53,755 bases of DNA. Origin: Flavobacteriales bacterium. GTDB taxonomy: Bacteria > Bacteroidota > Bacteroidia > DT-38. Position numbers and translations under genes: made by a program. Every line of letters begins with the position of its first letter. Position 1 is the first letter of the stretch. The notes under the pieces were generated by a model. It was not told the DNA's origin and searched no databases. It was given only the letters and a program-made list of their open reading frames with translations. This document shows positions 1,425 through 7,774 of this stretch, piece after piece. The DNA lies in NCBI GenBank assembly GCA_013214205.1, contig JABSPQ010000224.1, forward strand, positions 1-53,755, written 5' to 3'.

Positions 1425-4373
1425 TTAATCTATATGAATAAATACCCGCGAATCGCTGGTAAATTGAACTTTGCTGTCATTAATAACAGATGGTGCAGTA
1501 ATCGTATTTCCTGTTGATCCTGTCGCCTCTCCCGTTAGAAGAACAGCCACTTTACCATCAAGCTGAAGTGTTGCACCACTCGATTCTCCACTAACTTTCC
1601 CTTCGGATAACCACCTTTTTAGCTGAATCTGACGCCATTGACTGTACGGTTCTTCACGTCCCAATAGATTTTCGGCAAAACGCTTACCAGCAGTATCCCA
1701 TAAATTATTCTCCAAATCTGGCGAACTCTTCATTGCAGCTTGCATGTCTGTAGAGTTCAAAAACAACACAATTGCTGCAGATTCAGCAATAACGTCGGCA
1801 GTTCTTATACCACCAGTTAATACAGCCATTTCTCCAATTACACTACCTGGCCCTAAAATGTCTACCACAAAATCGCCAACCGCAACTTTTACCGTGCCTC
1901 TTGCAACAATAAATAAACCATCACCATCATCACCTTTCGCCATTAGTTTATCTCCTGCAGCATATACTTTTTCTTCGGCTAAGGTTTTTACTTTATCAAA
2001 ATCTTGAGATGTTAAATGGCTCAACCAAGAAACTTCGTTCAATACTTCAATCGGATTCGGCAATTCAATAGAAGGAGGACTGTCTATCAAGTTTTTCATT
2101 CTCTCTTCCACACTTCCCAGCATTTTCTCCGCTTCTTCAGATTCTATTCTACCATCACCCAATAATTTCCTCACCATGCTTCTCTCATCATTCAGCACGC
2201 TTCTAATGGCTTGTTTCGTTTCAACAGCCACTGCCATCTCTGGATGAGCCTCCCTTATCCCTTTAAGGAAGTTAAGCCCTCTTAATCTGTTTTCTGTGAT
2301 CTCTTGCTTTATGCTGTTCACTATTTCTTCATTACTCCCCTCACCCGACATGCTATCCACTAGCTTAATCACTTCTTCTTGAGCAACAATAAATCCTCTA
2401 GAAATATCATAGCTTTTTTCTAAGTCGAGGGCCAAAGTATTTTTAGCAAAATGACCAATAATAGGTGTGTTTTGCATTTTCTCGGCCCAGCTGGTGGCTG
2501 CTAACAATCCATCTAAATATTCACGTTCGCTCAAAGGAATTAAACCACCTTCATCCAGCACTTCGTTAATTCCATCCGACAATCGCTGAACGGCATTTGG
2601 CCCCAACATACCATCTTTAAACTGATGCCAATAACTACTTTTCTCTTTCTCTAAAACCATTCTTCTGATCTCAGCACGGGTATCCATTTTTTCTAAATCT
2701 TCCTGAGATATGGTGTATTGAATTGGAGTAGGAATAAACTCACGAACAGCATTCCAGTTTGCTCCACTCATAAATCTATCTCCTTTTAACAGATTAACAC
2801 TGTTATCCGAATTGCTTGCTATGTCCTGATAAGCATTCGACATCATAACCGCCTTAACGGCAGGAATATCTGTAAGACCCAATTTGCTCACCAAGAATTT
2901 TATCGTAGTAGCATTAACAAGTAATGTAAGCGTTACCGTACCAGCAATTAAGAAAAGAAACTGATCTCTAATAGGTTCTGGAATAGCTTCGGTGTTGGCA
3001 ACAATTAAGGCCAATGCCAATCCAATGGCACCCCTAAGGGCACCATACCAAACAACGTATGCATCTTTTAGCGGTAAACCATAACCTGCCTTCCTCATAA
3101 ATGGATAACAGACGGCTATAACTACTGCTCTTACAACATGAATTCCGATGTATGTTATACCTAGCAAAAGGAAGTTCTCTGATGTAAATTGAGCTCTTTC
3201 TGCGATAACAACACCAACAATTAAGAATAGTAAGCAGTTGGCAATAAAACCTGCCAATTCCCAAAACTCATGCATAAAATGTTCCACTTCTGGGCTAATT
3301 CTTGTACGTCCTACACCCGCCATAACCAAGCCTAACGCTACTAATGCCAATACTCCCGAAACATGCAAGAAATATTCTGCAACAAAGAAAGCCAGATAAG
3401 CTGCTGCTACAATTACACAAATCTCTACCAATGCATCGTTGAACACTTTTTTAACCCATGCAAGTACTACCCAGCCAATAAGCAAACCAACCACAGTACC
3501 TCCAACCGCTACATAAATAAACTCAACAAAGCCATTTGTATCGCTAGCAGCACCGGTTACGGTTAATAAAAACACATTAAAAATCACAATTGCTGTACCA
3601 TCATTTAACAATGATTCTCCTTCTATTAAAGTTCCCAATTTTTTACTTGCTCCCAACTCTTTAAGCAGTGCCACAACAGCCACAGGGTCAGTCGCGCTAA
3701 TTACAGAACCAAACATTAATGCCATTGGCCAGCCCCATCCTTCGAAGCCAATACCTGCCATTTTACAACCTATAACAATAGCCGCTGTGAGGCCAAGTGC
3801 AATACAAATTCCAGGAACGGCCAGTATAGTAGCATTGGTTACCGATTTTTTAAACACATGCACATCCATTGCAAATGCGGCCTCAAAGATTAATATGGGC
3901 AGGAATACATACAAAAGCAGGTGTGGATTAAGATTAGCTGCCCAGATCATTGAATCGTTCATTAAGCTCACGTCTAATTTCAAGAAACCGAAATCCCAAA
4001 AATCGAAGTAGTGGAGCCTTGCAAGCGTACCTAACCCTAACCCAAATAATAAAAGCATTACTGTAAATGGCAGCGGACTTTTCTTTAAAAAATGCCTTGT
4101 AGCTGCACCAATAATAAGCGCCAATATAATAAAGAAAAGCGCATCTAATCCATGCCGGCCGTGTGTTTCTGCGTGTCCCTCACCATGAGATTCTCCGTGT
4201 TCTTCTCCAAGCCCTTCAATAATAGCATCACCATAACCTGGTTGCTCATGGTCTTTGGAATCGTCTATTATGATTACGTTCTCGCTTTCCTCATGATGAT
4301 CTGCAAAAGCCAGATTACTCGAGAAACAAAATAAGCTCAACGATAAAACGATACTAATTAATGTCTTGTTCAT
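1425..4373 (-). CDS. CPA1/NhaP-type Na+/H+ antiporter with C-terminal cyclic-nucleotide-binding domain
   Basis: The 982-residue product probably exchanges Na+ (or K+) for H+ across the inner membrane. Residues 1-24 form a signal peptide. Residues 25-73 are rich in His, Glu and Gly. About 75-490 is a polytopic CPA1 exchanger domain with the ion-site pairs T228-D229 (in SATDPVAVV) and N257-D258 (in ESLLNDGTAIVIF). About 500-780 is a long, largely helical soluble region. About 783-895 is a CAP/CRP-type cNMP domain whose phosphate-binding cassette keeps the key residues E848 (GEMAVL) and R857 (IRTADV), so ligand binding looks intact. The layout recalls plant SOS1 and the sperm exchanger SLC9C1. 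It lies 13 nt downstream of the adenylate cyclase gene on the same strand, which suggests the ligand is cAMP made by that enzyme. This is inference. Confidence 0.9.
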   Translation of the reverse strand: MNKTLISIVLSLSLFCFSSNLAFADHHEESENVIIIDDSKDHEQPGYGDAIIEGLGEEHGESHGEGHAETHGRHGLDALFFIILALIIGAATRHFLKKSPLPFTVMLLLFGLGLGTLARLHYFDFWDFGFLKLDVSLMNDSMIWAANLNPHLLLYVFLPILIFEAAFAMDVHVFKKSVTNATILAVPGICIALGLTAAIVIGCKMAGIGFEGWGWPMALMFGSVISATDPVAVVALLKELGASKKLGTLIEGESLLNDGTAIVIFNVFLLTVTGAASDTNGFVEFIYVAVGGTVVGLLIGWVVLAWVKKVFNDALVEICVIVAAAYLAFFVAEYFLHVSGVLALVALGLVMAGVGRTRISPEVEHFMHEFWELAGFIANCLLFLIVGVVIAERAQFTSENFLLLGITYIGIHVVRAVVIAVCYPFMRKAGYGLPLKDAYVVWYGALRGAIGLALALIVANTEAIPEPIRDQFLFLIAGTVTLTLLVNATTIKFLVSKLGLTDIPAVKAVMMSNAYQDIASNSDNSVNLLKGDRFMSGANWNAVREFIPTPIQYTISQEDLEKMDTRAEIRRMVLEKEKSSYWHQFKDGMLGPNAVQRLSDGINEVLDEGGLIPLSEREYLDGLLAATSWAEKMQNTPIIGHFAKNTLALDLEKSYDISRGFIVAQEEVIKLVDSMSGEGSNEEIVNSIKQEITENRLRGLNFLKGIREAHPEMAVAVETKQAIRSVLNDERSMVRKLLGDGRIESEEAEKMLGSVEERMKNLIDSPPSIELPNPIEVLNEVSWLSHLTSQDFDKVKTLAEEKVYAAGDKLMAKGDDGDGLFIVARGTVKVAVGDFVVDILGPGSVIGEMAVLTGGIRTADVIAESAAIVLFLNSTDMQAAMKSSPDLENNLWDTAGKRFAENLLGREEPYSQWRQIQLKRWLSEGKVSGESSGATLQLDGKVAVLLTGEATGSTGNTITAPSVINDSKVQFTSDSRVFIHID

Positions 4374-4386
4374 GGATTGGTATTGA

Positions 4387-6222
4387 TTATTTATATGTAT
4401 CGACTAAGTCGATTAGTTTTTTTAGATGTAGCTGTTTCACTGGTTGGCGAATACTTATAGAACTCTCGGTAAAATAAGAATGTGCCGTTAAGAATTTAAC
4501 CTGCATCCTGTTCCAATCTTCCTCATTCATATCAACTCCTGTTGCATTTAGTTCCCTAATTAGGCTATCTCCAATAATTTTAAAATCATTTCGGCCTAAA
4601 TAATCTAAATCGGCATCACAAATAATTTCTTGCAATTTAGTTATGGCGGTTTGTGGAATTTTTGTTGCCCAGATAATTCCACAGATCTTCTCAATTTCCT
4701 TTTTATTAAAACCCAACTTCGGTAATCTTTCATTCACTATTACCATTCCGGCCTCTTCATGGTCCTTTCCGCCAACCGTAAACCCTGTATCATGGAAAAG
4801 CGCGGCCACTTTTAAAATTTCCATATCAGCCTGATTGATATTTTCCATATAGCCCAAACTTACGGCAGCATTATGTACATCGATGGTATGATGATACCCA
4901 TGGTAATATCTATTACCCGGCAACTGAGTTCTTAGCAGCTCTAGTGCGTTCTCTCGTGTTTTTACAAGACGATCTGATTCTATTTCTTTTGTAACAAAAT
5001 ACATATCGATTTCGCCCTTTCCCTTCGCTTCGATCTTGCCTCGGTAATCGCATTCAAAATAATCTTCGACCAATTCGTAAGTATCGGCAGAAATATTTAA
5101 TCGACCTGGTTCGCTATTACTTTCCATTCGGGCAGCAGTATTCACCGTGTCGCCCCAAACATCATAAGTAAACTTTTTGTAGCCTACAACACCAGCAACT
5201 AATGGCCCCGAATGAATTCCAGCACGCATCTCCCATTTAATCTTCGCTTTTTCACCTCTTTCGTTGAGGTAATCAATCATCTCCATAGCTGCTCTTATGC
5301 ATTGCACGGCATGCATTTTAGACACTTTAGGCAAGCCGCAAGCAGCCATGTATGCATCACCAATGGTTTTAATTTTTTCAAGACCATGATTACTCATGAT
5401 GTTATCGAAGTGATGAAAAATATCATCCAACTCATTTACTAAGTCTTGCGGACTCATTTTAGCAGATTGCACTGTAAATCCCTTAAAATCCGTAAAAACC
5501 AAGGAGGCCTCAGAATACGTTTGCGCCCTAGTTTTTCCATTCAACTTAAGCTCATCTGCAATTTCTTTTGGTAATATGTTATGAAGTAAACGTTCCGATT
5601 CGTCTTTTTGCTTAACCAATTCCTTGGTTCTTTTAGTCACTTCTTTTTCGAGCATTTCGTTTTGCTCCTCAATCAATTTTTTCTTTGCTTCTTCTTCTTT
5701 TCTTTTTTCTCTTGCTAGCTGACGATTAAGAATTGCGCTCACCACAATATTAGAGAGTAATTGAAGGAAGTTCAAGTGTTTTATGATGGAACTTACAGCA
5801 ATCGCATCATTGTCTTGATCGCCAATAATGAGGTATGCCAACGGTTCATCTCCTTTAAATACAGGGATAATCATATCGAAAGACGACAAAGTTGTTTCTC
5901 CTAAGCTGGCTACCGACGTAATGTCTGTTACGTCTTTTAAATCCGTTCCAACATCAATTTTGTCGAGTTCCGAATAATCTACTTCATACTGAAGCAAACA
6001 CCTCCATCTTTTTCCTTTACTATAAAGCAATAGTTTCTCGATGTTCAATTCGTGCTTAACAAAAATTTCAAACTTTTCGAGAATTTCGAGTACTGGAAGA
6101 TTGTTGTTGATGGCGTTCGTGATCTCTAAGAGTACATTTAGCTGAAGATCCTTGATCTTGATCTTTTCTTTAAAACGTGCAACTTTTCTTTCCGTTTTAT
6201 CCTTCATTTCTGAATTGCCCAT
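4387..6222 (-). CDS. class III adenylate cyclase fused to an HD-type phosphohydrolase domain
   Basis: The 611-residue soluble protein has an N-terminal GAF-like region (about 20-165), a charged coiled coil (about 165-225) of the kind that couples sensors to cyclases, a class III cyclase domain (about 235-415) and a C-terminal HD domain (about 430-605). Metal-binding D245 (VFTDFKGFT) and D289 (KTIGDAYMA), purine-specifying K285 and D354 (YDVWGD), and catalytic N361 and R365 (NTAARM) are all present. The Lys/Asp pair predicts ATP rather than GTP as substrate. The HD part has YHGYHH near 445 and H477-D478 (FHDTGF) and resembles the stand-alone HD protein at 25803. Whether it hydrolyses cAMP is unknown. 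It sits directly upstream of the cNMP-binding antiporter. Confidence 0.9.
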   Translation of the reverse strand: MGNSEMKDKTERKVARFKEKIKIKDLQLNVLLEITNAINNNLPVLEILEKFEIFVKHELNIEKLLLYSKGKRWRCLLQYEVDYSELDKIDVGTDLKDVTDITSVASLGETTLSSFDMIIPVFKGDEPLAYLIIGDQDNDAIAVSSIIKHLNFLQLLSNIVVSAILNRQLAREKRKEEEAKKKLIEEQNEMLEKEVTKRTKELVKQKDESERLLHNILPKEIADELKLNGKTRAQTYSEASLVFTDFKGFTVQSAKMSPQDLVNELDDIFHHFDNIMSNHGLEKIKTIGDAYMAACGLPKVSKMHAVQCIRAAMEMIDYLNERGEKAKIKWEMRAGIHSGPLVAGVVGYKKFTYDVWGDTVNTAARMESNSEPGRLNISADTYELVEDYFECDYRGKIEAKGKGEIDMYFVTKEIESDRLVKTRENALELLRTQLPGNRYYHGYHHTIDVHNAAVSLGYMENINQADMEILKVAALFHDTGFTVGGKDHEEAGMVIVNERLPKLGFNKKEIEKICGIIWATKIPQTAITKLQEIICDADLDYLGRNDFKIIGDSLIRELNATGVDMNEEDWNRMQVKFLTAHSYFTESSISIRQPVKQLHLKKLIDLVDTYK

Positions 6223-6301: not shown

Positions 6302-7774
6302 TCAAAAACCAAACACGGCCTTCCCAAGCGTAAAAACTGCTACAGTTATAATGATTATTCCCAGTAAGTTGAGCCAAATCCCAGTCCTCATCATGGTAGA
6401 CAGCGCAATCCTGTTGCTCCCAAACACAATGGTATTAGGAGGTGTAGCAACCGGGAGCATAAAAGCACACGATGCAGAAATAGTAACAGGAATCATAAGT
6501 AATAAAGGATGGCATTCTGCTTTTAAAGCCAGTTCAACAATTAATGGAAGAATTAAAAAAGTTGAGGCCGTGTTTGAAGTTAGCTCGGTAAAAAATGTCA
6601 TAAAGAAACACAACACCAGTACCATTAAAATAGGCGACAAACCTGCAACTTCTATTAAACCTGTAGAAATCCATGCAGCCAAGCCAGACGAGGAAATCCC
6701 TGCAGCCAATGCAAAGCCTCCACCAAAAAGAAAAATGATTCCCATGGGTAATCTTTCAAAATCGTCCCAGATAATTAATGATTTAGCACTTTTGCTTTTA
6801 GAAGGAATTAAAAAGAGCACACTTGCCGACAACATTGCCACGGTTGCATCTGTTATATAGTCGGGAAATGCAAAAATATCTCGCCAACCAGGTATGGTAA
6901 ATGACCCTATCTCGATGTCGCGCCTAAAAAACCAGAGACCAATTGTACATATAAAGACTAGAGCAACCATTCGCTCTTCGTACGACATTGCCCCCATTTT
7001 CTTCAAATCTTTTTCAATAAAAGCAACATCTACGCTCATACCGTCTAATTTTCTAAAAAAAATTGTTTTCAAAAGAAAAAAGCAAGCTGTAAACAATACT
7101 AGGCTCAACGGAAAAGCAAATACAAACCAATTTCCAAAATTGATGGCCTCATAGCCTCCAACTCCATCAAAGCGGTCGTTAAAAATTGTTGTGAGCACCA
7201 TATTAGGCGCAGTACCAACCAAGGTAGCCGTACCTCCTATTGAAGCTGCAAAAGCGACTCCCAGCAAGAATCCGGTGGCCATATTATCGTCTTTTTTTCC
7301 GTTCATTTTTTCAACCTGATTGATTACACCAAGTACGGCAGGCAATAGCATTGTAGCAGTGGCGGTGTTCATAATCCACATGGATAAAAAATAACTTGCC
7401 GACATAAAACCAAGCAGCATTTTAGTTGGGGTTGAGCCTGTTATTAGTATTATTTTGAGCGCGATCCTTCTATGTAAATCCCAACGTTCGAATGCATAAG
7501 CAATTAAAAACCCACCAATAAACAAGAAAATAATTTTGTTCATATATAAGGGAGCGACTTCTTTCATGCTCATAATGCCCAAAAATGGGAACAAAACGAG
7601 GGGCATTAAACTCGTAAAAAATATATTAACCGCCTCTGTAATCCACCATATCGCTATCCAAACGGCAACACCAGCCATTAACGCCATCGACGCTTCTTCT
7701 TTTAGGCCACCCATTAAAAAGAACACGATGAGCCCCATAAATGGACCTAAGATTATTTTCAATTTTTGCTTCAT
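6302..7774 (-). CDS. SLC13/DASS family sodium-coupled carboxylate or sulfate transporter
   Basis: The 490-residue polytopic protein has an early WWITEAVNIFFTSLMPL segment and two repeat-related substrate/Na+ motifs, NTATATMLLP in the first half and TSNTASTFLILPL in the second. These pseudo-symmetric Asn-Thr motifs define the divalent anion/Na+ symporter (DASS) family, which imports succinate, malate, citrate or sulfate with Na+. The substrate cannot be read from the sequence. The gene is 79 nt upstream of the cyclase gene on the same strand and may share its transcript. That would pair Na+-driven uptake with a Na+/H+ antiporter that could restore the Na+ gradient. Confidence 0.88.
   Translation of the reverse strand: MKQKLKIILGPFMGLIVFFLMGGLKEEASMALMAGVAVWIAIWWITEAVNIFFTSLMPLVLFPFLGIMSMKEVAPLYMNKIIFLFIGGFLIAYAFERWDLHRRIALKIILITGSTPTKMLLGFMSASYFLSMWIMNTATATMLLPAVLGVINQVEKMNGKKDDNMATGFLLGVAFAASIGGTATLVGTAPNMVLTTIFNDRFDGVGGYEAINFGNWFVFAFPLSLVLFTACFFLLKTIFFRKLDGMSVDVAFIEKDLKKMGAMSYEERMVALVFICTIGLWFFRRDIEIGSFTIPGWRDIFAFPDYITDATVAMLSASVLFLIPSKSKSAKSLIIWDDFERLPMGIIFLFGGGFALAAGISSSGLAAWISTGLIEVAGLSPILMVLVLCFFMTFFTELTSNTASTFLILPLIVELALKAECHPLLLMIPVTISASCAFMLPVATPPNTIVFGSNRIALSTMMRTGIWLNLLGIIIITVAVFTLGKAVFGF

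Follow-up and report, generated by a model that had tools for sequence, protein, structure and literature searches.

Organization of the cyclase-antiporter locus

The window, that is, the whole 53,755-nucleotide stretch of DNA analysed here (bases 1-53755 of contig C140), belongs to a draft assembly of 5.1 Mb in 464 contigs that is 97% complete. Three neighbouring genes on one strand are considered:

6302..7774, minus strand: DASS-family sodium/anion symporter (Pfam), 79 nt upstream of the cyclase gene
4387..6222, minus strand: cyclase-HD gene, 611 aa, open reading frame intact
1425..4373, minus strand: SLC9C1/SOS1-like Na+/H+ antiporter gene with a cyclic-nucleotide-binding domain (CNBD), 982 aa, open reading frame intact

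The cyclase gene lies upstream of the antiporter gene, and its stop at 4387 is separated by 13 nt from the antiporter ATG at 4373. The coordinates, strand and spacing that an earlier sequence-only reading of this DNA had given for the two genes are borne out by the intact reading frames. That reading had described an operon without the DASS symporter gene, which is probably the first gene of the transcription unit. The three-gene order is also found in the single genus-mate (G001) and is not kept in other families. The cyclase and the antiporter are probably co-transcribed; scans for promoters and terminators at the locus gave matches at chance level only.

The cyclase-HD protein

The 611-residue protein is divided into the following regions:

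5776..6222, minus strand: N-terminal conserved domain (residues 1-149), without Pfam match
5584..5775, minus strand: long helix or signalling coiled coil preceding the cyclase domain (residues 150-213), HNOBA end, in 16/16 members
4990..5526, minus strand: class III nucleotidyl cyclase domain with the adenylyl-type residues D245, K285, D289, D354, N361 and R365
4609..4896, minus strand: HD domain with an intact H / HD / D motif (H445, H477-D478, D536/D538), from Pfam and alignment

Pfam assigns residues 233-411 to the class III cyclases (PF00211, E 6e-57) and residues 443-538 of the same chain to the HD family (PF01966, E 3e-6), both above the curated cut-off, which confirms the fusion proposed from the sequence. 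The class IIIa (Lys/Asp) set of the cyclase is complete, with the metal Asp pair, the Lys/Asp base pair and the Asn/Arg transition-state pair. The catalytic residues D245, D289, N361 and R365 and the adenine-type residues K285 and D354, which the sequence-only reading had named, are all present, and the six are invariant in 16/16 aligned cyclase-HD orthologs. Lys and Asp at the base site of class III cyclases speak for ATP as the substrate. In the bicarbonate-responsive soluble adenylyl cyclase (sAC, class IIIb), Thr or Ser occupies the position of the base-recognising Asp of class IIIa. Bicarbonate control of the sAC type was also considered for the window cyclase and was rejected because D354 is present and invariant.

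A Pfam search with the N-terminal residues 1-149 found no family match. From the predicted order of strands and helices, our guess is that this part may be GAF-like, and it is possibly the input domain. Helix 150-213 looks like a coiled-coil transmitter. The fold search with the cyclase-HD protein gave cyclase proteins only among the matches listed, and nothing on the HD domain or the N-terminus.

The candidate metal ligands of the HD domain (H445, H477-D478, D536/D538) are invariant in 16/16 aligned orthologs. The only known structures that its sequence resembles are those of stand-alone HD hydrolases, all of them weak matches (3djb, E 0.0025; 2pq7; 5dqv), and no similarity was detected when it was compared with known cAMP phosphodiesterases. 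Since these matches are only weak, hydrolysis of cAMP by the HD domain is plausible rather than proven, and we give this putative function a little less than an even chance. The same matches favour another function, in which the HD domain is no cyclic nucleotide phosphodiesterase and hydrolyses a different nucleotide, e.g., an NTP or pyrophosphate. This alternative also falls just short of evens, and three observations weigh against it: the conserved metal motif; the association with a cyclase, either as a fusion or, in G075 and G319, as a separate small gene adjoining the cyclase; and the precedent of MpCAPE from Marchantia, a cyclase-phosphodiesterase fusion in which both parts are active (PMC5159850). 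The occurrence of the HD domain both as a separate gene beside a cyclase and fused to one elsewhere makes the link between the two look functional. Cyclase and HD domain appear as two separate neighbouring genes at loci L076 (8349-10922) and L133 (8572-10341).

Architecture of the antiporter

The antiporter is built from an exchanger domain, a cytoplasmic linker, the CNBD and a C-terminal domain:

2886..4127, minus strand: exchanger domain; the ND pair N257-D258 and R415 (= SLC9C1 R399) are invariant in 22 homologs
2064..2861, minus strand: helical cytoplasmic linker of the alpha-CTD type, without a membrane-spanning stretch
1725..1970, minus strand: cyclic-nucleotide-binding domain (Pfam)
1791..1835, minus strand: phosphate-binding cassette GEMAVLTGGIRTADV (E848, R857), from alignment
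1428..1598, minus strand: C-terminal beta domain (beta-CTD) as in SOS1, from sequence and fold matches

The exchanger (PF00999, residues 83-496, E 1e-58) and the CNBD (PF00027, residues 802-883, E 2e-15) both score above the curated cut-offs of Pfam. The exchanger carries the features of CPA1 antiporters, namely the ND motif N257-D258 and the essential R415, which is the counterpart of R399 of the sea-urchin exchanger SpSLC9C1, a transport residue known from mutants (PMC6052114). A segment rich in His, Glu and Asp lies between a signal-like N-terminal helix and the first transmembrane helix of the antiporter (window 4149-4298), and a comparable TEEHDDGHDDGHDDLHAHA stretch occupies the matching site of SpSLC9C1.

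Among sequences in the PDB, the best match of the antiporter is sea-urchin SLC9C1 (E 2.6e-153), followed by plant SOS1 (~1e-111), and NHE1 matches at 1e-28. The exchanger domain alone gives the same order, with 321 bits for SLC9C1, 292 for SOS1 and 101 for NHE1; its identity to SpSLC9C1 is 45%, and for ordinary Bacteroidia antiporters the figure is ~30%. The predicted structure of the full chain also matches SLC9C1 best (Foldseek, E 1.8e-49) and then SOS1 (E 3.6e-43). The likeness to SLC9C1 and SOS1 thus spans the whole antiporter and not the CNBD alone, which goes beyond the sequence-only reading. In a tree where SpSLC9C1 is the only eukaryotic row and SOS1 has no row, SpSLC9C1 falls into one clade with these bacterial antiporters, apart from ordinary antiporters, a placement to be read with caution because its branch is long.

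No hydrophobic or membrane-spanning stretch is predicted between residues 496 and 819, and the alignment to SLC9C1 skips the voltage-sensing domain (VSD). Since no membrane span separates the exchanger from the CNBD, the antiporter is without a voltage sensor and is therefore, strictly speaking, no SLC9C1. The autoinhibitory tail that follows the beta-CTD in SOS1 is also absent, as the chain stops at residue 982, past the beta domain.

Conservation of the nucleotide-binding cassette

The cassette described earlier as complete (E848, R857) in a CPA1 antiporter has both of its residues, and R857 aligns with R1053 of SpSLC9C1, whose mutation to Gln abolishes the effect of cAMP (PMC6052114). Cassette Glu and Arg are kept in all eight readable antiporters that are paired with a cyclase (8/8; the one in G222 is cut by the contig end). 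As in the window antiporter after R857, a Thr after the cassette Arg also occurs in CNBDs that bind cGMP. Because of this Thr, the CNBD alone cannot fix cAMP over cGMP, and the nucleotide would be set mainly by the cyclase.

The count of paired and unpaired antiporters covers the class Bacteroidia and two phylum-level genomes. Among the 21 unpaired antiporters, the Arg is kept in six and lost in eight, and the CNBD is absent in seven (Fisher p 0.0007 for cassette Arg versus cyclase pairing, uncorrected for relatedness). Those that keep the Arg are four members of family f62 together with the antiporters of G031 and G275, and all six come from genomes with 1-4 cyclases elsewhere. Those that have lost it belong to families f5 and f82, and in three of the f5 genomes with a lost cassette no class III cyclase was found. 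Such a distribution would be expected of a cassette that is retained to bind a cyclic nucleotide. Solitary SLC9C1-like antiporters of f5 and f82 whose CNBD is without the binding Arg are found at L083, L084, L124-L127, L136 and L137.

These counts bear on whether the CNBD is a structural relic that is deaf to cyclic nucleotides, with the cyclase signalling elsewhere. Plant SOS1 ranks second among the matched structures and shares this architecture, and its CNBD-like domain, which has lost the Arg, reportedly does not bind cyclic nucleotides (PMC10372031); the Arg or the whole CNBD is likewise lost in some Bacteroidia homologs. However, such losses occur in unpaired copies only, while the window antiporter and all readable paired homologs keep both Glu and Arg, and among the CNBDs found in the home genome only this one has an intact cassette. 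We consider a relic CNBD quite improbable.

Distribution and exchange of the transporter partner

The survey comprised 395 Bacteroidia genomes, one per species. Most of them are drafts, and absence is thus weak evidence. The full-length cyclase-HD protein occurs in 19 of the 395, including by homology G024, where it is split in two frames, and G166, where it is cut by a contig end. In nine of the 19 it adjoins a CNBD antiporter with gaps of up to ~41 nt, and these nine paired antiporters come from two families only (f1 and f24). A scan of genome contigs found two close relatives, each with a cyclase-antiporter pair. Divergently upstream of the pair, several f24 genomes encode a DUF1538 membrane protein together with a P-II-like protein (L065 1206-4257; L121 4586-7607).

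In eight further genomes of the 19, from families f16, f21 and f41, the cyclase-HD gene adjoins a gene for a different transporter of ~740 aa, in which Pfam recognizes SulP/SLC26, STAS and CNBD domains; the remaining f21 and f41 members were assigned by BLAST to it. Examples of this SulP/SLC26-STAS-CNBD gene beside the cyclase-HD gene, among others, are:

L073, 11493-13706
L075, 6781-9003
L117, 3617-5833
L120, 7550-9766

In 8/8 of the adjacent SulP CNBDs, Asp replaces the cassette Glu (GDM...RKRSA), which counts against direct control. A polyphosphate kinase 2 (PPK2) gene directly follows the SulP-cyclase pair in f21 and f41 (L117 697-1560; L075 10909-11826; L120 11697-12560).

In the last two genomes, G008 and G068, the cyclase-HD gene stands alone and a SulP-STAS-CNBD protein is encoded at another locus. 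Each of the 19 genomes with cyclase-HD therefore encodes one or the other of the two unrelated CNBD transporters, never both, and the two genes are adjacent in 17/19. The SulP-CNBD protein was found in exactly 10 of the 395 genomes, all of which encode cyclase-HD, and in none of those with the antiporter pair. The association of SulP-CNBD with cyclase-HD has a naive Fisher p of 4e-15, which relatedness inflates, but adjacency is seen in five families. In the cyclase tree, the SulP-type cyclases form one clade, and those of the antiporter type fall into two clades that the tree does not place firmly relative to each other.

An SLC9C1-like antiporter is encoded in 28 genomes of the class and has a CNBD in 21 of them. 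The two genes are neighbours in nine genomes of families f1 and f24, and the other 12 of these 21 have no adjacent cyclase, so that the pairing is not general for this antiporter. As the six unpaired antiporters with an intact cassette accompany non-adjacent cyclases, pairing is not obligatory for this type of antiporter.

Cyclic nucleotide components of the home genome and its relatives

The cyclase-HD protein is the one class III cyclase found in the home genome, and a search of this draft for a class I cyclase found none. Of the two PF00027 domains encoded there, only the antiporter CNBD has an intact cassette; the second belongs to a 196-aa Crp-like protein without the GE...R cassette. In the draft of the genus-mate, a single cyclase and a single CNBD were found, both encoded by these two genes, and no cassette-bearing Crp was found in either draft. 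Most SulP-type genomes have just one cyclase, and their CNBDs number 6-15, so cAMP probably has several receivers in them.

The two genes may instead be co-expressed salt- or pH-stress genes, with cAMP acting through Crp-like transcription and the antiporter CNBD sensing at most the global cAMP pool. This reading gains from the solitary intact-cassette antiporters in genomes with other cyclases, and from the SulP-type genomes, whose cyclase probably feeds transcription factors too. On the other side stand the failure to find a cassette-bearing Crp in the home genome and genus-mate, and the exchange between two unrelated CNBD transporter partners, which is not expected from co-expression alone. 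Taking both sides together, we regard mere co-expression as hardly probable.

Proposed mechanism

We favor direct control of the antiporter by the cyclase, and think it likely that the cAMP made by the cyclase would bind the antiporter and modulate Na+/H+ exchange. The soluble cyclase would produce a cyclic nucleotide, most likely cAMP, when its N-terminal domain senses a signal. Binding of this nucleotide to the C-terminal CNBD of the antiporter would then change the rate of exchange, probably by activation, by analogy with SLC9C1. The HD domain would probably curb the signal through hydrolysis of the cyclic nucleotide or of some other phospho-compound. The sequences themselves show intact catalytic, exchanger and binding residues, conserved adjacency and the exchange of partners; the activities, the identity of the nucleotide and the direction of regulation are inferred. 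The two proteins probably form a dedicated signalling pair.

A CNBD on a secondary transporter is the sole feature common to the antiporter and the SulP partner, which argues for direct control. The proposal in the sequence-only reading that cAMP acts on the exchanger itself rather than through CRP thus gains strong comparative support, from the neighbourhood in nine genomes, the re-pairing with SulP and the lone class III cyclase and intact cassette detected in the home genome, while the activities remain predicted ones. We lean slightly toward a more general view, in which the cyclase-HD module directly controls secondary transporters through their CNBDs and has swapped partners, with a Na+/H+ exchanger in some genomes and an anion transporter of the SLC26 type in others.

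A Pycsar-like defence operon, with a pyrimidine cyclase and a membrane effector carrying a CNBD, has a similar layout. The PADLOC model for PycC matches the cyclase (E 7e-15) and that for PycTIR matches the CNBD (E 2e-13), both through homology alone, and these matches arise because Pycsar has the same arrangement of a cyclase plus a CNBD effector. However, the adenine-type Lys and Asp are invariant in the cyclase, the effector is a full exchanger of the housekeeping type, the pairing of cyclase and partner is stable within families and tree clades, and the fused HD domain and the SulP partner are unlike known Pycsar effectors. We consider defence a very remote explanation for this operon.

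Implications for cyclic nucleotide signalling

In the textbook view, cAMP in bacteria works via CRP-family transcription factors. Modulation of Na+/H+ exchange by cAMP is known for sperm SLC9C1, and K+ channels gated by CNBDs are known in bacteria. The combination of exchanger and CNBD was said in a review to be absent from bacteria (PMC7573149), and the bacterial sequences described here contradict this statement. A literature search, conducted mostly outside subscription journals, found no case in bacteria of a secondary transporter that is paired with a cyclase of its own.

Our results suggest direct control of ion transport by cAMP in bacteria as well. If so, cAMP would be a fast bacterial regulator of pH and Na+ balance, and the locus would represent a bacterial, post-translational pathway from cAMP to ion transport. 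The sole class III cyclase detected in the home genome is tied to an ion exchanger, and the same cyclase in relatives to an anion transporter. This small system of a cyclase and an exchanger would make the cAMP gating of an SLC9C1-type exchanger approachable without a voltage sensor. The locus also bears on the origin of the SLC9C1/SOS1 architecture; the form of it that senses cAMP could be older than the sperm exchanger.

Comparison with known systems

SpSLC9C1 and the window antiporter share the exchanger domain, a helical linker, a CNBD whose cAMP-binding Arg is in register and a C-terminal part, and SLC9C1 works with an adenylyl cyclase. In contrast, the VSD between exchanger and CNBD of SLC9C1 is missing from the window antiporter, and the window cyclase is class IIIa-like (resembling the transmembrane adenylyl cyclases, tmAC), carries an HD domain and is encoded next door rather than merely co-expressed. 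The likeness to SLC9C1 claimed earlier therefore stands for the whole chain, including exchanger identity and fold, and does not extend to the voltage sensor or to a cyclase of the sAC type.

SOS1/NHX7 has the same order of exchanger, alpha-CTD, CNBD or CNBD-like domain and beta-CTD, and is also without a VSD, as the full-length phmmer and Foldseek matches indicate. SOS1 is controlled by phosphorylation of its C-terminal tail. The window antiporter keeps an intact cassette and has no such regulatory tail, and is thus not a SOS1.

The bacterial K+ channels MloK1 and SthK likewise place a C-terminal CNBD on a membrane transport protein, and the antiporter sequence has a match in the CNBD of MloK1, but MloK1 and SthK are channels, whereas the window protein is a secondary transporter. 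MpCAPE of Marchantia unites a class III cyclase and a phosphodiesterase in one chain, as the window protein does with its putative HD hydrolase; it differs in phosphodiesterase family and domain order, and is a sperm-linked plant protein without a transporter partner. Pycsar also sets a class III-like cyclase next to an effector with a CNBD, but its cyclase is a pyrimidine cyclase, its effector is toxic and its role is anti-phage.
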